From the NCBI GenBank assembly GCA_022592445.1, contig JABYQR010000198.1, positions 20,485 to 84,484 of the forward strand: DNA of 64,000 bases, in the 5' to 3' direction. Of the stretch, positions 2,441 through 47,600 are shown one piece after another; position 1 is the stretch's first letter; each line of letters begins with the position of its first letter. The DNA is from Cytidiella melzeri. Its lineage: Eukaryota > Basidiomycota > Agaricomycetes > Polyporales > Irpicaceae. Position numbers and translations under genes: made by a program. Below the pieces are notes generated by a model, which did no database searches, had not been told where the DNA came from, and saw nothing but the letters and a program-made list of their open reading frames with translations.

Positions 2441-2896
2441 GCAATGTCTGTAGATTGCTGCACATGTACCTGACTAGAATTTTACATCATTTGCCAGCAG
2501 GAGTGGAGTTTGAATTTGAGTCTGGATGACCTTTTTCAGTAGACTGGCCATAAATTGCTCAATTCCACTTCAATTGACAGGATGTTTGTACCAGGATGTT
2601 GCCACAAGATGGGGCTATCCAATTGTGTACTATATTTACAGATACAGCTGTACCCATATGCAGTCTGTAGAAATCAAAAACTGCATTTTGATTGCAAAAG
2701 TGATCTGATACGAAGTAATAAAGGGCTGATAACAAGGCCAGTGTGATGTCATCAGCTGTATTCATTGTTTTTGTTATTGACACTGTATTCTGCCAACAAT
2801 TCCCACACTTTGGGGGACAAAAAGGTCACATCTGAAAAGGCATAAATGTGCTGGAGCACACTGGAACAATTCTTCTTCATTGGTCAGGAATTGTAA
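2441..2896 (+). repeat. left arm of long inverted repeat
   Basis: About 455 bp that is, with small gaps, the reverse complement of 4250-4708. Matching landmarks are GCAATGTCTGTA at the outer end, the GGATAGCCC/GGGGCTATCC core and the GTGCTGGAGCACACTGG block near the inner end. By eye identity is roughly three quarters or more. The arms enclose one complete secreted-protein unit. No transposase frame lies between them, so this may be a non-autonomous element or a large inverted duplication. Confidence 0.85.
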
Positions 2897-2978
2897 CTAT
2901 GCAGGAGTGCTATAAACAAGCTACAGAAGTATTGTACTGTTTGTTGATCCAGCTACCAATAACAGATCTAGCTTCTGT

Positions 2979-3344
2979 CTACTTTGGTCCTAAGCTGTGT
3001 GGGCCCTCAACCTCTTTAACTATGTTGTCAATTGATGGCTCTGTGTTTGGTAGTGAAGGACTATCTGGTACTGGGGCTTTTGCTTCACCTGATTTGCCTA
3101 ATTCTGCATTATAGTATGGCCAGACAAATTCAAACCCTGGCTTGGCTTTGCCTGAAACATCCCTGTCAGACCGGGGAAACTCACTCCTTCTTCTCTCCAA
3201 GCTTGAGGGACTGTCAGAGACAGCTGGATTACTGGATCCTGTGTACGGAGCAGCAGACACAGTCACTGTAAGGAATGTGCCAGTGACAACAGTGGCAAAG
3301 AAGACAAGAGAGGTGGAAAACCGCATGACAGTATGGGATGGCAA
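2979..3344 (-). CDS. small secreted protein, family unit A
   Basis: 121 residues with no recognised domain. The N-terminus MPSHTVMRF leads into a hydrophobic stretch ending VTVSAAPY, a clear secretion signal with likely cleavage after SA. The mature part is short, rich in Ser, Pro and charged residues, has the family segment SLERRRSEFPRSDR, and ends LGPK. It is a paralogue of the genes at 6963 and 8556: the signal peptide, the Arg/Ser segment and the terminal PK are shared and the middle is not. Transcription probably starts below the TATA box at 3762-3768 and crosses several short leader introns, with donors near 3690 and 3564. Small secreted proteins of this kind are often effector candidates in fungi; no function can be read here. 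Confidence 0.75.
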   Translation of the reverse strand: MPSHTVMRFSTSLVFFATVVTGTFLTVTVSAAPYTGSSNPAVSDSPSSLERRRSEFPRSDRDVSGKAKPGFEFVWPYYNAELGKSGEAKAPVPDSPSLPNTEPSIDNIVKEVEGPHSLGPK

Positions 3345-3761
3345 AGAGGGATAACAGGGGTTAAAAAGGGTAGCTGGACAGCCAGCTGTGACAGTGAGCT
3401 CAGTACAGTAAGTGCAATGTGAACAATGTACTCACAGAGTAGTGTAGGATGTCAAAGGGCTCAATGATAACTGGGTTTGAATGGACAATAAGATGGCCAG
3501 CTGTGAGAGCAAGTTCAGTACAGTGGCCCAAAGTTACTGGAACACAACTAACAATTTACTTACCAAATGGAATTTAGACTGTTGAAATGCAATGAAAGGG
3601 TCTGGACAGACAGTAAGCCTGCTAGCTATGATGGCAATATCAGTACAGTGGCCCAAGACAGGTGTAACACAAGCACCAATGGTACTTACCAACCAGTGCT
3701 GAAGCAATGAGAAAACTTGGAGTGGAGAGTGTGCTGGGGTACAAGGAGGGAGGCAAGGGAC
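3345..3761 (-). other. spliced non-coding leader of unit A
   Basis: Read on the minus strand, this stretch repeats a module of short exon plus short intron. GTAAGT or GTGAGT donors lie near 3690, 3564 and 3432, and AG acceptors lie just before blocks resembling CTAGC(T)GTC. The same module occurs above the genes at 6963 and 8556. The first unit-A exon has no ATG, so these exons look like 5' UTR. This is inference from splice consensus and repetition. Confidence 0.6.
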
Positions 3762-3768
3762 TTTATAT
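3762..3768 (-). promoter_or_regulatory. TATA box of unit A
   Basis: ATATAAA on the minus strand, in the shared block ACAAGAGATATAAA that recurs upstream of unit C at 7794-7800. Confidence 0.65.
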
Positions 3769-4207
3769 CTCTTGTGATCTATGCACAGTGCGGATGCAGT
3801 TGAAACAGTGCACAGCTGAGAATTCTAATAGGGGGTGAAAAGGTCTTGGATGGTAACACCTGAACTGCCCCATCCTCATAACAACTGCAGGCTGTGTAAT
3901 GCATGATGAAGCCTTGATTGATGCTTGCTATGCAATGAAGCTGAATGAAGCATGGCTGTGTGATATGCCATGTCTGTGTTTCAACACTGCTTTGTTTTAG
4001 AGCAGACCTGCCCATATGTACAAAAATGGTGTTTGATCTGTATCAGGCAGTGCAGTCTTACACAGAACTTCATTGCTCTCACATATGCCAAACAGCCTGA
4101 GAGCTTGCTTGACTAGAGGTGCACCCTGCAACATTGCTATAATCAAGCAACAGTAGTTATAAATACTAATTTGAATACCAAGAACAGAAATATCTTCTCA
4201 ACACTGT
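3769..4207 (-). repeat. shared upstream spacer of the secreted-protein units
   Basis: This segment is repeated, diverged, at about 6490-6960 and 7801-8560. Shared phrases include AACTGCAGGCTGTG, the block around CATGATGAAGCCTTGAT, and GTTTGATCTGTATCAGGCAG. The duplicated unit therefore includes promoter and intergenic DNA, not only the gene. Confidence 0.7.
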
Positions 4208-4249
4208 CTACTTTGGGCCTGAATTCCAGCTCTTGAGATCTTTTGTTAT
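4208..4249 (-). pseudogene. truncated 3' end of another secreted-protein unit
   Basis: Read on the minus strand this is the end of a family reading frame, ...GPK then TAG, in the context CTACTTTGGG that marks the stop codon of the genes at 2979, 6963 and 8556. Upstream sequence is lost exactly where the right inverted-repeat arm begins (4250). A fifth unit was therefore cut by arrival of that arm. Confidence 0.65.
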
Positions 4250-4708
4250 TACAATTCCTGTAGAATGAAGAAGAATTGTTCCAGTGTGCTCCAGCACATT
4301 AATGCTTTTTCAGATGTGACCCTTTTGTCTCCCAAAGTGTGGGAATTTGATGGGAGAATACAGACAGTAACAGTCTCAATATCAAAGCAATGAATGCAGT
4401 TGATGGCATCACGCAGACATTGTTATGAGCCCTTTCTAACTTTGTATCAGATCGCTTTTGCAAACAAAATGCACTTTTTAAATCTTACAGACTGCATATG
4501 GGTACAAACCTGTACAAATTATACATCATTGGATAGCCCTATCTTGAGCAGCATCCTGGCACAGTATCCTGTCAATTGAAATGGAACTGAGCAAGTTATG
4601 GCCAGCCTACTGAAAAAAGTCACTCAGACTCAGATTCAAACTCCACTTTTGCTGGCACATGATGTCAAATTATCGCCAGATACATGTACAGCAATGTACA
4701 GACATTGC
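4250..4708 (-). repeat. right arm of long inverted repeat
   Basis: Reverse-complement partner of 2441-2896. Its inner end abuts the truncated family stop codon at 4208; its outer end runs into unrecognised sequence. No convincing target-site duplication is visible at the outer ends. Confidence 0.85.
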
Positions 4709-5700
4709 TTGCTCTCTGAACAAGGAATACAATCAGAACACATGCCACAAGTATTGTTGGCTCTGAGCAAGACTTCCAAGTAGTTTGAAAGCTAACAAAG
4801 CATTCTCAACCCCTACATTCTTAGACAAAGGAAACTGATAGTTGCATCAGCAGTGAGCACTTTATCTGATAGTCATACAAAGTTTCACAACCATCAGTTG
4901 CTCTCTAAGCAGGATTCACAATTAGAACACAGCCTGTGGCAGTTTCAGTGGAGATGAGGCAGTTCAGACATCAACAGGACACATGTAACATGTTTTGGGA
5001 GTTGATCTGATGAGACACCCTAAAGCCCTTCATTCTTGTCGCCATCTGGGATCAACAGTGAACACTGCACAAGATTAATGATAAGATATGAGGCTCCTTG
5101 CTACCATTGGTGACCACATTTATCAATGTATGGCTCCTTTCCTACAACCAAACTGATCAACTGTAGAACAGTCACTTTATCCCAGATCAAGTTGCTTATC
5201 AAAGGTGTCACCAATAGCAAATGCCCTTACTACCGTCAATATTCCTGGCCAGATTATTTGGCAAGGTTCTTACTGGGAACAAAACTGTTTAATGAGGTTC
5301 TTATTGGTAAAAAAAAGTCACAGGCTCAAGTGACTATTTCAGGCTATATGACTTATTCAATTTGCTATCAGTAACATAATCACCTGTAACCTGCTCCTGG
5401 AGTTTACCCTGATTGTATCTAGATTAGTTGACATAGTTCAACACCATTAAGAGAAGACACATGTCAAACAACCTTTATTTCTATGCTCTACTCCACCAAC
5501 TTGTTTCAATTCTATACTCACATCCATTGTTGCACTTCAAACAACACAGCACAGTCCTCCTCCTTTCCTGAATGATTGTGTGCTCCAGTGAAGACAAATC
5601 ACCAGCTTACTATACATTACTCATCATAGAAGCCATTCACAACAAAATTGCTTAGTCAAGCGGCTACCAGCAGCAAGTTTACTTACAAATCTAGCTCAAA
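4709..5700. other. no gene recognised
   Basis: AT-rich sequence between the inverted repeat and the broken unit B. An 82-residue open frame at 5126-5374 has no domain, no splice context and no relative in the window. Confidence 0.45.
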
Positions 5701-5714
5701 AAGTGATATTTCAA

Positions 5715-6110
5715 TCAACATTCAGAAATATGTACTTGCTGCTTCCCAGCCTTGCTAAAGCTAGCTCTAGTAAGCAATGACTCTGGCTTTGAGTAGAGCA
5801 GAGGAGAATTGTTTGGTACAGGGGTCATTGCTTCACCTAAAACAAATAAAAACCTGTATGGACCGGTGATAAGCAGATTGTAGGTATATGATAGGCACCT
5901 ATACTCTTTATCATCTGAAACAGAGACATAAGGCCAGGGAAGGTAAAACTTGCTCCTCATTCTCTCTGGGGGTGTTGAAGGAAGTTGGATTGCTGGACCC
6001 TGCACTGTTATGCAGAGCAGCAGACACAGTAGCTGTATGGATGCACTAATGAAAACAGGGGCAAATAAAACAAGAGAGGTAGAGAACCACATGACAATAT
6101 AGAACGTCAA
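5715..6110 (-). pseudogene. secreted-protein family unit B, broken
   Basis: The start resembles unit A (MTFYIVMWFSTSLVLFAPV). The frame is lost inside the signal peptide: sequence equivalent to VSAAPY lies in another frame around 6020-6030, and the open frame runs through unrelated residues afterwards. The Arg/Ser segment survives as ERMRSKF. Its upstream block, with a degraded TATA site near 6477, repeats the family pattern. It is best read as a decayed paralogue rather than a working gene. Confidence 0.6.
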
Positions 6111-6962
6111 AGGGCAGTGTTGAAAAAGACGGCAAAACAGCTAGCTGTAACAATAATATAAAGTAAGTGTAATGTCACCAACCATGTACCTACTGAGCAG
6201 TGTAGGATGTTGGAAGGACATGTATTGGATAGATGACAGGAAGCTACTGATAAGAACAAGTTCCATACAATGACCCAAAGCAGATGTCACACAAACAGCA
6301 ATGTACATACCAAACAAGGTGTAGGCTGTCAAAGGGCACAGAAATGGGTTGCACAGACAGAAGACTGATTATCATGGCAAAACCAGTACAGAAACCCAAA
6401 ACAGGTATATCCCAAACACCACCAGTGCTTGTGAAGCAGCAAGAACTTGCAGTGTACAAGGATGGTGGCAAGAATCTGTGTATACCTTGTGGCTCATGTG
6501 TCTTGCAGTGCTGATGTGGGTCTTCTAACCTATGTGCATTGCAGTGCTGACGCAACTGAATTAGCATGAATCTAAAAATAATGATAGGATTTGGAAAGGT
6601 CTTGCATGGCAACTTCTGAACTGCCTCATTCTCATAGCAGCTGCTGGCTGTGTTCTGCACATCATGATGAAGCCTTGATTGATGCCTACTACTCAATGAA
6701 GTTTCATGAAGCATGGCTGTGTGACATGCATCTATCTTTCTTTCAATGCTGTCCTATATCAGACTTGCCCATATGTACAAAAGGATGGTGTCTGATCTGT
6801 ATCAGGCAGCACAGCCCTTTCTGATTGTCTTACACAGAGCTTTGATTGCTATCTCATACACCACACAGCCTGAGAACTTGCTACAATTGAGCTATGAACA
6901 AGCTACAAAATTTTTCAATGCTAATTCAGATACCAAAAACAAAATTTCCTTCTGAATGCTGT

Positions 6963-7385
6963 CTACTTTGGGGTACGAAACTTGCTGAGAAGGCCCATGC
7001 CTTTATTGCCATCTTTCTGGCCAGCTGGTAACTCTGAGTATGGTGGTGGTGGACTTTGTGGTGCAGAGGGCCCAGAGGCCTTTGCTTCCCCTGGTGCTTT
7101 GTGTTGCTCAGCTGCCTTTGGGATGAAAGTAAACGATGGCTGGCCATAACTTGCAAAATTTGGCCCTTTGTACTTTTCACCTACTGTATAGACATATGGA
7201 TCAGACCGTGTAAACTTGCTCCTTGTTCTCTTCAAGCTGTAGGGGTTGTCCGGAAAAGTTGGATTGCCTGATTCTGCACTGTTGTAGGGAGCAGCAGACA
7301 CAGCTGCCACGTGGAATGTACCAGCAACCACAGCGGCAAATAAAACAAGAGAGGTGGAGAACCGCATGACAGGATGGGATGGCAA
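6963..7385 (-). CDS. small secreted protein, family unit C
   Basis: 140 residues. MPSHPVMRFSTSLVLFAAVV starts a signal peptide that ends AVSAAPY. The family segment SLKRTRSKFTRSDPYVY follows, then a Gly/Lys/Pro-rich part with PQSPPPPYSELP and the family end FRTPK. No catalytic motif is visible and no cysteine remains in the mature part, so this is not a disulfide-knotted effector type. The upstream block repeats the leader introns and TATA box of units A and D. Confidence 0.78.
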   Translation of the reverse strand: MPSHPVMRFSTSLVLFAAVVAGTFHVAAVSAAPYNSAESGNPTFPDNPYSLKRTRSKFTRSDPYVYTVGEKYKGPNFASYGQPSFTFIPKAAEQHKAPGEAKASGPSAPQSPPPPYSELPAGQKDGNKGMGLLSKFRTPK

Positions 7386-7800
7386 AGAGGGATAACAGGG
7401 GTTGGAAAAAATAGCTGGACAGCTGGCTGCGACTATGAGTTCAGTACAGCAAGTGCAATGTGAACAACAATGTACTTACAGAGTAATGTAGGATATTGAT
7501 GGGCCAGGTGATACCAGGAGGTGGATAGATGGTAAGATGGCTAGCTGAAAGAACAAGCTCAGTACAGTGACCCAAAGTGACTGCACCATTACTTACCAAA
7601 TGGAATGTATGCTGTTCAAATACAATGAGAGGCCTTGGATAGATAGTAAGATGGCTGGCTATGATGGCAAAATCAGTAAAGTGACCCAAGACAGCTGCAA
7701 AACAAACACAAATGTACTTACCAACCAGTGCTGAAGCAATGAGAAAACCTGGAGTGGAGAGTGTGCTAGAGTACAAGGAGAGTGGCAAGGTAGTTTATAT
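7386..7800 (-). other. spliced leader and TATA box of unit C
   Basis: A TATA box (minus strand ATATAAA, 7794-7800) is followed by repeated short exon/intron modules with GTAAGT donors near 7720, 7600 and 7480. The exon preceding the first donor matches that of unit A (TTCAGCACTGGTTG). ORFs read across these exons stop quickly, supporting a non-coding leader. Confidence 0.6.
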
Positions 7801-7890
7801 CTCTTGTGGTCTGTGTGCAGTGCTGATACAAGTGAAACAGAACCCATTCTACAAGTAATTCTGATAGGGGGTGAAAAGGTCTTGGGTGGT

Positions 7891-8320
7891 AACATCTGAA
7901 CTGCCTCATCTAATAACAACTGCAGGCTGTGTTCTGCACACCATGATGAAACCTTGATAGATGCATGGTCAAAGACAAAGCTAGATCAAGTGTGGCTGTG
8001 TGACATGTGTACATTTTTGTTTTGACACTGCTTAACATCTGAACTGCCTCATTCTCCTAACAACTGCAGGCTGTGTTCTGCACACCATGATGAAACCTTG
8101 ATAGATGCATAGTCACACACAAAGCTATATCAAGTGTGGCTGTGTGACATGTGTACATTTTTGTTTTGACACTGCTTAACATCTGAACTGCCTCATTCTC
8201 CTAACAACTGCAGGCTGTGTTCTGCACACCATGATGAAACCTTGATAGATGCATAGTCACACACAAAGCTATATCAAGTGTGGCTGTGTGACATGTGTAC
8301 ATGTTTGTTTGAACACTGCT
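7891..8320. repeat. three tandem copies of a ~144 bp repeat
   Basis: Copies start at 7891, 8034 and 8178 with AACATCTGAACTGCCTCAT and run to about 8320. Copies 2 and 3 are nearly identical; copy 1 is slightly diverged. The repeat is part of the shared upstream spacer of the secreted-protein units, where unit A and the broken unit B have a single copy. Confidence 0.9.
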
Positions 8321-8555
8321 TAACACCAGACCTGCATGCATGCACAACATCATGGTGTTTGATCTGTATCAGGCAGTACAGCCCATTCCAGCTGTTTCAT
8401 GATACAGAACTTGGTTGCTATCACATACACAAAACAGTCTGAGAACTTGTTCAACTAGAGTCTAGAGGTCTACTGTGCAACAGTGCTACAAACCAGCTAC
8501 AGAACTTTGTACACTAATACAGATACCAATAACAGAGTTACTTTCTGGATACTGT

Positions 8556-9266
8556 CTACTTTGGGCGTGAGGAACCCTCTGTCCAGGCCTTTGCAATTTT
8601 TCCCAGATTTACAATTGGCAATGGTCTGACTGGCTTTGGCTGTAGCAGTTCAGGAAAAGTTGTTTTAGGACCCTGTGCTTGTTGTGGTAGGCCTCTGTGT
8701 CGATACTCCACTTGCTTTTGAGATCTCCCAGCTGCAGGTGGTTGCCTTTGCTGAGCCACAGGTTGTTGCCTTTGCTGAGTTGCAGGTTCTTGCCTTTGCT
8801 GAGCCACAGGTTGTTGCTTTTGCCGAGCCGCAGCTTGTTGCCTTTGCTGAGCCTCAGCTTGTTTCCTGTGGTAAGCAATGTATTGCTGCCTGAGCTTAAA
8901 GTCACGAAGATGCTGCTCCCTCTCAGCCTCAGCCTGTCGTTGCCTTTGATGTTCCTGATCCTCAAGGAATTGCTTTGCATATCGATGAGCATCAACTGCT
9001 TTCATCCCCTTTCTCTCAAGTTCATATTGTAACCTTGCAAGATCTGCAGCCATGATTTTATCCCTCTGCTCCTTTGCTTCCTTACTGGTGCCACTGGGGT
9101 CAGCCCAATAGACATAGGGAGCAGACCGGGGGAACTGGCTCCTTGTTCTCTCCAAGCTGTAGGAATCGCTGGAGGAACTGTCGTATGGAGCAGCAGAGAC
9201 AGTTGCTGCATGGAATGTGCCAGCAACAACAGCAGCAAATAAAGCGAGAGAGGTGGAGAGGCGCAT
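8556..9266 (-). CDS. secreted Gln-rich protein, family unit D
   Basis: 236 residues from the ATG at 9266. An upstream in-frame ATG at 9335 lies before a probable 3' splice site and is therefore intronic. The signal peptide MRLSTSLALFAAVVAGTF ends near VSAAPY. Next come SLERTRSQFPRSAPYVYW, then a charged, probably coiled-coil stretch (about residues 55-135), then about 60 residues of degenerate repeats built on AQQRQ(Q/E)P, and a basic tail ending SSRPK. It is much longer than units A and C because of the helical and Gln-rich part. Gln-rich secreted repeats can mediate self-assembly or adhesion in other proteins; that is only a possibility here. Confidence 0.8.
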   Translation of the reverse strand: MRLSTSLALFAAVVAGTFHAATVSAAPYDSSSSDSYSLERTRSQFPRSAPYVYWADPSGTSKEAKEQRDKIMAADLARLQYELERKGMKAVDAHRYAKQFLEDQEHQRQRQAEAEREQHLRDFKLRQQYIAYHRKQAEAQQRQQAAARQKQQPVAQQRQEPATQQRQQPVAQQRQPPAAGRSQKQVEYRHRGLPQQAQGPKTTFPELLQPKPVRPLPIVNLGKIAKAWTEGSSRPK

Positions 9267-9724
9267 GATGGTATGAGATTGTGAAGGGTGATAGAAGAGG
9301 TTGGATAAGGCAGTAGGACAGCTAGCTGTGACCATAAATTCAGTCCAGTGATCTAAAGGGAGAGCAATGTGGAAATGTACTTACTGAGCAGTGTGGGATG
9401 ACAAAGAGCTGGGTGATAACAAGGGGTTTGAGGAGATGGTAAGACAGCTAATTGTGAGAACAAGTTCAGTACAGTGACCCAAAGCAGGTGCAACACAAGC
9501 AACAATGTACTTACCAAACAGAATGTAGGCTGTTGTCAAAGGGTAGTGGAAGGGTTTTGATAAGAGGTAGGATGGCTAGCTGTAAAGACAGATTCAGTAC
9601 AGTGACCCAAGGCAAGTGCCACTCACACAACAAAGGTACTTACTGACCAGCGCTGGAACAATGGGAAAACCTGGATAGAAGAGTATGTGCTGAGGTGGCA
9701 TTGTGGTGGCAAGGGAGTTTATAT
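9267..9724 (-). other. spliced leader and TATA box of unit D
   Basis: The clearest copy of the leader. The TATA box is at 9718-9724. Donors GTAAGTAC follow GCGCTGGTCA, TTCTGTTTG and CACACTGCTCA. The introns end TTTACAG, ACAATTAG and GGTCACAG, each followed by a CTAGC/CTGTC-type exon start. All three introns contain a version of GGGTCACTGTACTGAA shortly before the acceptor. Exons and introns are each roughly 70-95 bp. The ATG at 9266 is the only ATG after the last acceptor. Confidence 0.65.
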
Positions 9725-9850
9725 CTTGCCTGAAAACATAGGGATCAATGAAAGTCCACATGCCCCAGATAACAACATGTGAACTGCCCCATCCTGATAA
9801 CAACTGCAGGCTGTGGTGTGAGCATGCCAGTGGTGATGAAGGCTCAGTCA

Positions 9851-20056: not shown

Positions 20057-20634
20057 ATTTGTATTGGTATCGTGGGAGACTTGGGAGGTACGCCAGTGTA
20101 GCCGCCTTGGGAGAGGTAGATATGTTTCAGTAGATCATTGACTGCTCTGCGAGCGGTGGATAGGCTTAGAACGTACCGAATATGAATGGTGACACCATGT
20201 TTTTTCCGCACACATAAACGCTTGGCAACGCCACAAAGCCGGCGCTTGTACTAGTAGGGGAGGCTGCATACATATGTACGAGGCCTGCGTAGCTGCTCTG
20301 CGTGCCTGACCTCAGCCTAGAGAGGAGATGTAGGTGAATTTTTACATGATTGGCCAGGCCATCGGGTGTAAAGGGTCCTCCGGCATTCTTCCGATATATC
20401 ATTTTGGCCCGCCATCCGAGTGGGCTGTACACTGAACCAAAGACTTGATTGACCAATGATAGAGAACGGGTGATCACCTTCATGACCACGGCCACAAAGC
20501 AACACAATCGCGTATATGGCCGTTTGGAAGGCCATCGATCTATATGGGCCAGCGGTAGTCGTCAACCTAATCCGTCACAAGGCTGGATCTGCAATAACAG
20601 CGCCACACGTCAACGTTATACTTGGAGTCCATTC
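20057..20634. other. no gene recognised
   Basis: Short overlapping frames only; promoter of the 20759 gene at its right end. Confidence 0.4.
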
Positions 20635-44440: not shown

Positions 44441-44610
44441 TGTTAGAAGGCTATGAAAGTAGAGGAAAGTGTTGAGAGAGCAAGACTGAGAGGGATCACA
44501 AGGTGGGAGTTGGGGATCAAAAGTGCGTATCGTTGCATTGATCAGAGTAAGTCATATATACGGTAACTACGGCGCTCGTATGTTAAGTGTCTAATTAATA
44601 TAGTCGAACA
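44441..44610 (-). repeat. 3' LTR of copia copy 2
   Basis: 170 bp, TGTTCGAC to CTAACA on the minus strand; pairs with 49442-49611. Confidence 0.9.
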
Positions 44611-44617
44611 CTCCCCT

Positions 44618-47600
44618 TCAAGCACGAATATGAAGTAGTTCATTGAAGTGCTTGAGTTTTTTGAGAGGTAGTGCTTTAGTAAGTGTATCAGCACGTTGAT
44701 CGTTAGAAGATATATGATGAATAGTTATATACTTCTTGAGTACACAATTGCTGATGAAATTCTTACAAATTTTGAAGTGTTTAGTTTGTTGCAAATGTTG
44801 CTCGTCAGGTGAGCTAACAATGGCAATAGTTGATGCACTGTCAGTATACATTTTGACAGGATCCATAGTAAAGTTCAGTAGTTCATCAATGAGTGCTTTT
44901 AGATATATAGCCTCAGTTGACGCATGCGCTAAGGCATATAATTCGGCTTCGGTGACCGATAGTGTTACAAGTGAACCGCGCTTACTTGACCAAGAGATAA
45001 GCAAGTCATTGTATGTGAAGGTGTAGCCCATTATTGGTTTATTGCCGTATGTAGTCATACCGTCAGAATCAGCGTATCCGACAAGTGAAGTATTAGTAGT
45101 AGTTGCTTGGTTTCCTAGGACAAGCCAGTAATCACACGTTCCCTTCAAGTATAGGTAACACTGTTTAGCTGCAGTGAATTGCTCCTTAGAAGGGTCAGCC
45201 AAGTATCCAGCAAGTTGACCAGTGCAGTATGCAACGTCTGGTCGAGTACAGTCAGCGACGTATTGTAAACCACCGACTAAAGACATGTATTGTTTAATAG
45301 CGTCAGCATCCTGACAAGGTTCTTTCGAGTCATGGGGGGCTAAGTTGTGCTCGTGTATCATAGGGTACGGCGTGTATTATTGTGGTCAAATTTGTTTTGT
45401 TTAAGTATAGTTTGGATATAATCGTGTTGACAAAGCTTGATAACACCAGAGGCTTTGTCGTAATTGATCTCCATGCCAAGCATCCAGTGGATAGTACCAC
45501 CATTTGTTACCACAACATGTTGTCTAAGTGCTATCTCAAATTGTTCAACGACGACAGAAGTAATAGTACAGAGAGTAATATCGTCGACATGAACAGCAAG
45601 TATAAGTATTAGTTTGTCTCCCCTGTAAAGGTAGAAGACAGCGTTATCGTAGTCTGAACGCTTGAGTCCAAGTTGGAAAAGTATATCGCATAGTACCTTG
45701 TACCAGCGACATCCGGCTTGTTTAAGGCCATAGATAGTTTTGCATAGTTTAAGTACCCAGCCCTTAGGCAAGTTGGGCAGTAAGTTGCCTGGCGGTGGAC
45801 AAAGGTAAAGATCTTCATCATCGTTAATTTTATTGTATAAGTAAGCGGACTTAACATCAAGTTGGTTAATCTCGAAGTGTAGTGAAGCTGCAAGTGTAAG
45901 TATGAGTCGCATAGAACTCATGCGCGCGACTGGAGCGAATAAGTCATTTGCATAGTAATCAATACCATCACGCTGAGAGTATCCTTGCGCAACAAGTCTT
46001 GACTTGAGTTTAGTAACTTTGCCATGTTCGTACTTGGGCTTGTAGACGAAGCAAGAACCAGTAATGTTGGCATTTGGTGGCAGGATACCGTATTCCCAAG
46101 TGCCAAGTTGTTCTAGTGTATCAACCTCAAGTTTCATAGACTTGTACCAATCGTCTTTGAGAGGGTGATTAAGTACATCTTTGAAAGTGACAGGGTCACC
46201 GACGTCCTCAGCATAGTAAGCGTTAAACTCAGTTAAGTAGAAAGCAATGTTAGTGTCTACTTCGTTGTAGTTTAGACCACGAGCTTTACGCGATAGTTGA
46301 GGAGTTCTGTTGGAACGCCTTGGACCAGTAGGGTCAGGCTCGTCGATTTCCATTGGTTCTATGTGAGGGTTGTCCTCAAGTTCAAGTTTTTTTTCTGTAG
46401 TAAGTTTTTCGACATTTGGTTCTTTCTCCCCTTCAATTTGTATTGTAGAGTCAACAAATTGCAAGTTACGTTCAACCCCGACACATTGTCCAAAGTAAAC
46501 GTAGTGACCTTTAGAGTGTTCAGCGAAGCCTATCCAGACTCCCCTTTTACCCTTAGATGCTAGTTTATTTGTGCGATATTTGTCGTATACGATGCACGGC
46601 TGACCAAAGACTTGAAGTCCATCAAGGTTAGCATCTGTGCCATATCGCTTAAAGTAAGGAGTTTTGTAGTTAAGTATAGTGCGAGGAGAACGATTGTACA
46701 CATACATCGCGTATAATGCAGTGTACCACCATAGTCAATTTGGTAAAGATGCAGTAGCAGGTTTACTCGAATCAAGTTCATAATAGTTTGATCTACACGC
46801 TCAGCAACACTGTTTTGCTGAGGAGTATCATGTACAGTAAGACGTAGTATAGTTCCTTGAGTTTTCAAGTAAGCAGTCATAGCTTTACTGGTAAAGACAC
46901 CGTCATTATCGGCTTGAAGTATCTTGACACAAATACCATATTGTGTCAAAATTTCAGTAGAGAAAATGACCCACTGAGTATAGGCGTCATCTTTAGTAAC
47001 TAGTGGTGCAAGTACTAACCATCTAGTAGCATTGTCGACGATAGTCAACCAGTATTTATGTTTACCAGTAATCAATGCTGTGGGTAGAGGCCCAAAGATG
47101 TCGATATGAAAGTGATATCCGAAAGCTTCAGCTAACGATGAAGAACAAAGTTTCGGTACGGTATTGCGATGGATATTGTTAAGTAAACAATCCTCGCACG
47201 GAGTTTCAGTATGGTCAGTTATATGATCAGTAATGATTGACGAAGTTTGAAGTAGTTTCTTGATCATGAAGTAACTGAGATGATCGAGTTTTTTATGAAG
47301 TTCAGATAAAGTAATGCCAGTTCTATGCACGCTTGCTAAAGAAGTCACTTGAGTTGATGATAGTGTGTATAAATCGTTTGATTTTCTAACAACAGCCACA
47401 CAAGTCAAGTTTGAGTTGTATATAGTACAAAGATTGTTATAGAAAGTAAAACAATAATCAGAGTCCAGTTTTCCAACGATGATTAAAGTAAAAGGTAGAG
47501 TTGAGTTGAAGTAGACATTCTTCAGCAATAGTTCAGTAAGCTTACCACTTTCCTGTTCCACCTCGAGTACCATGTCACCAGCAAGTTTGAAAACTAGTTG

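Follow-up and report, generated by a model that had tools for sequence, protein, structure and literature searches.

A stretch of 64,000 nt from contig JABYQR010000198.1 of the polypore Cytidiella melzeri (the window, positions 20,485 to 84,484 of the forward strand) contains, at 2979-9850, three intact genes (U1, U3 and U4) and one decayed copy (U2), all on the minus strand (Table 1). Sequence comparisons indicate that they belong to a large family of predicted secreted proteins that share an intron-bearing leader. Self-BLAST of the window aligned U1 with U3 (78% over 852 nt) and with U4 (72% over 622 nt), with E values of 0 to 9e-87. The coding part of each intact unit is an uninterrupted open reading frame (ORF), preceded by TATAAA and by three predicted GT-AG leader introns of 50-67 nt with the donor GT[AG]AGTA. 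The predicted order is the same in all three: TATAAA, exon 1, intron, an exon of 62-65 nt, intron, an exon of 63-65 nt, intron, a last leader exon of 59 nt, and ATG. The original prediction of at least four units in one orientation, one of them broken, with a TATA box and a repeated intron leader in the full ones, was thus borne out. An ORF of 259 aa from 9335 starts within the predicted leader intron 3 of U4; the family start lies at 9266. One 26-nt exon/intron junction was found in the genome 155 times with ≤3 mismatches and the reversed pattern not once, so these repeats are far above chance.

Table 1. Features of the window at and around units U1 to U4, with positions counted from the first letter of the window
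Feature	Positions	Strand	Description
CpG-depleted island	2500..9850	.	CpG observed/expected (o/e) 0.10, versus 1.02 for 9950-43000
U1 coding sequence	2979..3326	-	115 aa, single ORF; ATG 3326, stop 2979
U1 predicted leader intron 3	3386..3435	-	50 nt; GTGAGTAC...CACAG
U1 predicted leader intron 2	3501..3563	-	63 nt
U1 predicted leader intron 1	3626..3689	-	64 nt
U1 TATA box	3762..3767	-	TATAAA, first base at 3767
U2 decayed unit	5715..6092	-	start codon kept, family reading frame gone after first residues
U2 predicted leader intron	6145..6193	-	nearest to module 3 of other units
U2 predicted leader intron	6247..6310	-	nearest to U4 module 2
U3 coding sequence	6963..7367	-	134 aa, single ORF
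U3 predicted leader intron 3	7427..7479	-	53 nt
U3 predicted leader intron 2	7545..7596	-	52 nt
U3 predicted leader intron 1	7659..7721	-	63 nt
U3 TATA box	7794..7799	-	TATAAA, first base at 7799
U4 coding sequence	8556..9266	-	236 aa, single ORF; Q-rich 24-nt repeat at 8706-8897
U4 predicted leader intron 3	9326..9384	-	59 nt
U4 predicted leader intron 2	9448..9514	-	67 nt; acceptor TAG outside aligned acceptor column
U4 predicted leader intron 1	9580..9643	-	64 nt
U4 TATA box	9718..9723	-	TATAAA, first base at 9723

The 49.7-Mb genome of C. melzeri, a member of the Irpicaceae in the Polyporales, contains at least 209 loci of this family on 158 contigs, according to the union of three protein-based searches. 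The U3 protein gave at least 101 matches (150 of 264 candidates scored), and two further queries with other N-termini gave at least 150 matches each, that is, every scored candidate (150 of 317 and 150 of 320). The union is a lower bound and took in 25 of the 101 places found with the U3 protein. Sequences were extracted for 60 of these places (L039-L098), 58 of which have an ATG at the expected start. Only four neighbouring pairs ≤5 kb apart were found among the at least 209 loci, two of them inside the window, so a tandem array is atypical and the family is mostly dispersed. The tandem duplication proposed originally therefore holds for U1-U4 but not as the main layout of the family. Two pairs with identical proteins (L067/L068 and L094/L095) may reflect recent duplication or haplotype copies within the assembly. 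Two protein searches returned relatives only within C. melzeri, apart from one protein, and none of the entries listed by literature searches describes this family.

The leader module is shared across the family. A hidden Markov model (HMM) of the module matched 63 of 64 genes (60 picked by protein similarity and the four window units), most of them partly by construction, since 46 of the 64 served to train it; at E < 0.01, one match was present in 38 genes, two in 17 and three in 8. Among the 18 genes that had not been used for training, 17 were matched, five of these being near-copies of trained genes and two (L050 and L057) weak. A DNA search with the U3 leader alone gave 46 matches, and a usable family start was present in 25 of the 27 loci examined (L012-L038; L022 and L032 lacked one, and L012, L017 and L033 were already in the set). 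Near-identical copies (L062, L068, L069, L093 and L095) were excluded from the module, splice, ATG, protein-feature and leader-pair statistics, and L045, L050 and L057 are absent from the strict set (HMM E < 1e-6) for want of a sufficiently strong module. This set comprises 56 genes with 81 usable introns of 45-75 nt (2 of 83 modules yielded none): 37 genes have one intron, 13 have two and 6 have three. Three leader introns had been considered unusual for such genes, a view that does not hold for a family in which 19 of 56 genes have two or three. The donor is GT or GC in 82 of the 83 aligned modules and AG occupies the acceptor column in 73, while some of the others use a nearby AG. Mean conservation of the eight splice-critical columns is 0.944, compared with 0.728 in the other 96, a level reached in 0 of 100000 random draws. 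In L045, a 110-nt leader piece, 97% identical to the leader of L075, lies inverted ~750 nt upstream (C390:51431-51540 and 52288).

Upstream ATG codons are distributed as expected for a leader that is spliced and not translated. In the predicted leader exons, 9 ATGs occur in 8329 nt, against 92 expected under a first-order Markov model; the corresponding figures for the predicted introns of these genes are 49 in 4953 nt and 88 (binomial p 2e-13). Two of the nine exonic ATGs sit in the decayed U2, and another, in L051, shares the frame of the start codon. Leader exon lengths follow no multiple-of-three rule (8/7/10 for internal and 13/22/20 for last exons, modulo 3). Together with the conserved splice columns, the ATG counts argue strongly, at the sequence level, for a spliced and untranslated leader, in agreement with the non-coding leader originally proposed; the near-absence of upstream ATGs also disfavours control by upstream ORFs, one form of the translational control that was put forward originally beside intron-mediated enhancement. 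Before the first donor, ATG density in 20-nt bins is 13-33 per kb up to -80, drops to 5.8 in the following bin and stays at 0-1 per kb from -60 (52 genes: the strict set minus L066, L087, L079 and L076). Of these 52 genes, 28 have TATAWA at 61-100 nt ahead of the first donor and 2 have it in a control interval at 221-260 nt. The start of exon 1 was set 30 nt past the TATA-like motif (31 of 56 genes) or otherwise 65 nt before the donor; in U4, an ATG ~24 nt past the TATA box lies just outside the counted exon 1. The drop in ATG density after a positioned TATA box would thus locate the transcription start and the 5' untranslated region (UTR) from the sequence itself.

Modules 1, 2 and 3 of U1 match those of U3 by position (identity 0.88, 0.82 and 0.85), compared with 0.53-0.65 within U1, and modules 2 and 3 of U4 also match by position (0.78 and 0.78); module 1 of U4 is slightly nearer to module 2 of L085 (0.75) than to module 1 of U3 (0.73). 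Because of this pairing, the triplication of the module is most likely older than the tandem gene copies. The earlier proposal that the module was duplicated within a unit stands insofar as modules have multiplied within units; the positional pairing across U1, U3 and U4 shows that this is not specific to one of them. The internal exons apparently fall into two groups: in most, the end resembles that of exon 1, while those of U1-U4 and L084 lean to the end of the last exon, with scores that are close for several genes and slightly opposite for the first internal exon of U1. These end-similarity scores, taken on short modules, suggest more than one origin of the internal exons.

The encoded proteins are short (median 153.5 aa in 54 members), and all three intact units of the window lie below 300 aa. 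Their N-terminus, with the consensus MxFSTSLVLFAAIVTGTFHTVTVSAxPYxS (56 sequences), is conserved and hydrophobic and contains VSAxP, and a predicted model places a helix at residues 5-20. The dipeptide KR is enriched at residues 56-80 (24 in 1303, versus 10 in 2664 beyond residue 100). The secreted-type family suggested originally is supported, and we infer that the products are secreted and cleaved by a Kex2-like protease. Only 12 of 54 members have two or more cysteines after residue 28, i.e., the mature part is not cysteine-rich. A Pfam search at E 0.01 gave no match for 44 of 45 members and one weak match to FSIP1 (E 0.0052). A model of L089 based on 24 members had a predicted local distance difference test score above 90 for the greater part of residues 80-150, which are mostly helical (predicted template modelling score 0.53), and its comparison with the PDB gave no convincing structural match. 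The annotated proteins P0001, P0005 and P0008 are each a single ORF from the family ATG. Six loci (L044, L047, L055, L061, L064 and L070) have short ORFs, several of which end at a GTGAGT-like donor, suggesting a subfamily with a coding intron.

A single mature domain common to all members was considered and not established, as iterated profiles link only small groups. Profiles from residue 51 (59 parts) linked 13 parts with seed L060 (0 decoys among 1180) and 22 with seed L065 (2 decoys), and other seeds linked fewer, with 0 to 2 decoys at the end; this slice contains the end of the propeptide, on which the larger links lean. From residue 76 (57 parts, 8 seeds), 1-11 links were obtained with up to 4 decoys and up to 6 of 57 parts without a decoy: L060 linked 3 with 0 decoys, L065 7 with 1, and L089 6 with 0 (later 11, with 4 decoys). 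These runs excluded U4, short proteins and nine entries that were copies or broken. As the links shrink from residue 76, only small related mature groups are supported; the rest may be captured unrelated coding regions.

The predicted promoter, leader and prepro-region form a constant block, and the predicted mature protein is hypervariable, a combination that the original proposal had missed. Leader DNA (-300 to 0) was similar at 1e-3 in 959 of 1711 pairs and the 3' flanks gave 14 matches; the protein from residue 33 on was similar at 1e-3 in 23 of 1540 pairs, protein and DNA BLAST being not strictly comparable. In U1 and U3, identity falls from 0.79 in the leader to 0.72 in the prepro-region and 0.53 in the mature part (background ~0.45). 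The boundary is sharp at the dibasic site in two close pairs: (i) L075 and L093, ~32 kb apart on one contig, share 149 of 150 leader positions and 57 unchanged first codons, diverge at the KR codons and cannot be aligned above background in the mature part, and their 3' flanks differ too; (ii) L094 and L104 have one mismatch from -240 to +155, after which the mature parts have a synonymous divergence (dS) of 0.27, a nonsynonymous divergence (dN) of 0.42 and 40 of 89 identical residues. A frameshifted copy of L104, L105, lies near it. L101 and L075 present a variable mature segment (dS 0.785) between ~95% identical flanks, with 134 of 140 aligned leader bases (160 columns) and 237 of 250 post-stop positions identical, and L021 and L028 show a weaker form (leader 0.96, mature 0.71, 3' 0.92). 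Unlike these pairs, L058, L062 and L069 are similar over their full length. This pattern would be explained either by exchange of mature segments or by homogenisation of the 5' block through gene conversion that ends at the dibasic site. L045 and L075 have dS 0.060 and dN 0.163 (p 0.015), and three pairs pooled give p 0.014; as the pairs were chosen for closeness and others were saturated or below 1, these values are suggestive of positive selection.

The window units lie in a CpG-poor island with a sharp edge near 9.9 kb. Over 59 family genes, CpG o/e has a median of 0.29 (range 0.09-1.14), the comparison background being the window only, and the obvious reading is a putative loss of CpG by methylation and deamination. 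Several repeats lie nearby. Inverted copies (83%) of a ~457 nt repeat occupy 2440-2896 and 4249-4709, on both sides of U1; genome-wide, 40 of 652 candidates for this repeat were scored, with matches of ~90%, one of which is the window's own copy. Positions 1-1731 are a putative end of a Copia-like retroelement, as read from the ORF at 32-1231, with a 94% copy on the opposite strand at 44441-46168. Upstream of U3, three tandem copies of a 144-nt unit lie at 7909-8340, and a related single copy lies upstream of U2.

Taken as a whole, these data are probably best explained by TATA-driven genes with a spliced untranslated leader, a prepro-protein product and a copied constant 5' block. Transcription would start shortly past the TATA box of each unit and give a message whose untranslated leader contains one to three introns of 45-75 nt, with translation from the first AUG of the spliced form. 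The product would be a prepro-protein with a near-constant signal-peptide-like start, a dibasic (Kex2-like) propeptide and a hypervariable secreted part. The constant 5' block would be copied or homogenised among the at least 209 loci, and the mature part would diverge or undergo exchange. We infer that the genes are transcribed and spliced and that their expression depends on introns, the likeliest role of the leader being intron-dependent mRNA accumulation: a leader intron would most likely meet the need of basidiomycetes for an intron in stable mRNA and would free the often single-exon coding region to vary, and extra modules would provide a further intron dose. In Cryptococcus neoformans, intron removal strongly lowers the mRNA of most genes tested, and intron number and position act cumulatively (PMC3744415). 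In Ganoderma, which like C. melzeri is a polypore, addition of an intron increases both mRNA and protein (PMC8379801).

Several observations weigh against this explanation. Ten of the 83 modules lack AG in the aligned acceptor column, L045 (the sole gene without an HMM match) has no leader at the usual place, and TATAWA is absent from the expected interval in 24 of 52 genes. Relatedness among the family genes makes the ATG counts non-independent; the introns of the same genes serve as an internal control. A KR of the xTKR type occurs at residues 46-100 in only 21 of 54 proteins, and a looser KR or RR in 42 of 54. The annotated protein P0002 differs from the single ORF of L057, and the short-ORF subset seems, by eye, to hold a coding intron, i.e., the leader intron is not always the sole intron. 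For CAS3 of C. neoformans, the two outermost introns had a negative effect on mRNA, which one or two introns were not enough to restore (PMC3744415).

Among the alternatives, it is rather unlikely that the leader introns matter mainly through translation, by removal of upstream ATGs or provision of a short clean 5' UTR, and not through mRNA level. A retained intron would indeed add upstream ATGs in some genes, given that ATGs are tolerated in introns and not in exons, but the ATG count of the introns is itself below expectation, and leader exons without ATGs are what efficient translation calls for by default, with no need of a special switch. We give an equally low probability to an expression-neutral leader, inherited with the duplicated 5' block and spread by segmental duplication with decay. 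The entire 5' block is homologous, decayed copies are known (U2 and L105), and the family genes are CpG-depleted, as silenced repeats often are. The splice columns and the absence of exonic ATGs have nevertheless been kept, although modules of different genes are often only ~55-65% identical, and the introns of the same genes carry more ATGs than the exons. That the region is a transposable element or satellite, as the high-copy ~457 nt inverted arms around U1 and the CpG o/e of the island might suggest, is highly improbable, since this repeat lies outside the units, the intact units retain ORFs, TATA boxes and splice sites, and gene annotations that begin at the family ATG exist for three relatives.

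The explanation by TATA-driven genes with a spliced leader can be extended, with little confidence, to a cassette system, in which mature cassettes are swapped at the protease site behind a fixed 5' block (with the 3' flank at some loci) that serves as a frame for expression and secretion, the number of leader introns sets the output of each frame, and the products are antagonistic or self/non-self factors between wood competitors. An antagonistic or recognition role among wood microbes is itself a guess, prompted by the hypervariability and by hints that dN exceeds dS.

The best-known examples of very large, hypervariable families of secreted proteins come from venoms and from the effectors of parasites. 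Conotoxins have a conserved prepro-region, a pre/pro/mature layout and introns in the coding region. The predicted introns of C. melzeri lie instead in the 5' UTR and the mature parts are not cysteine-rich; the likeness is one of layout, and no homology is claimed. Conotoxin superfamilies likewise have a hypervariable mature part and a similar size (221 genes in C. betulinus), with positive selection reported for some (PMC10561478). The HYP effectors of cyst nematodes share a hypervariable coding domain in otherwise conserved genes (PMC11228951). There, single loci have many alleles with reordered motifs, whereas C. melzeri has many dispersed loci in one assembly with the whole mature part diverged. 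Fungal small secreted proteins, e.g., those of the Pleurotus ostreatus ssp genes (PMC10705924 and PMC5674062), are also short, with a hydrophobic N-terminus, almost no Pfam match and a host in a mainly white-rot clade; the C. melzeri family differs in its at least 209 loci, one constant promoter-leader-prepro block and hypervariable mature parts. Compared with the introns studied in C. neoformans and Ganoderma, those of C. melzeri are predicted in an untranslated leader common to the family, whose number of modules differs from one paralogue to another.

In C. melzeri, a hypervariable family of this type lies in a fungus of a mainly white-rot clade. Paralogues with one, two or three leader introns behind related promoters provide natural replicates for the question whether expression in Agaricomycetes is tuned by the number of introns, and close pairs that differ mainly in the mature segment provide material on how such diversity arises. 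The scarcity of upstream ATGs across paralogues can, in addition, reveal transcription starts and 5' UTR introns without RNA data.

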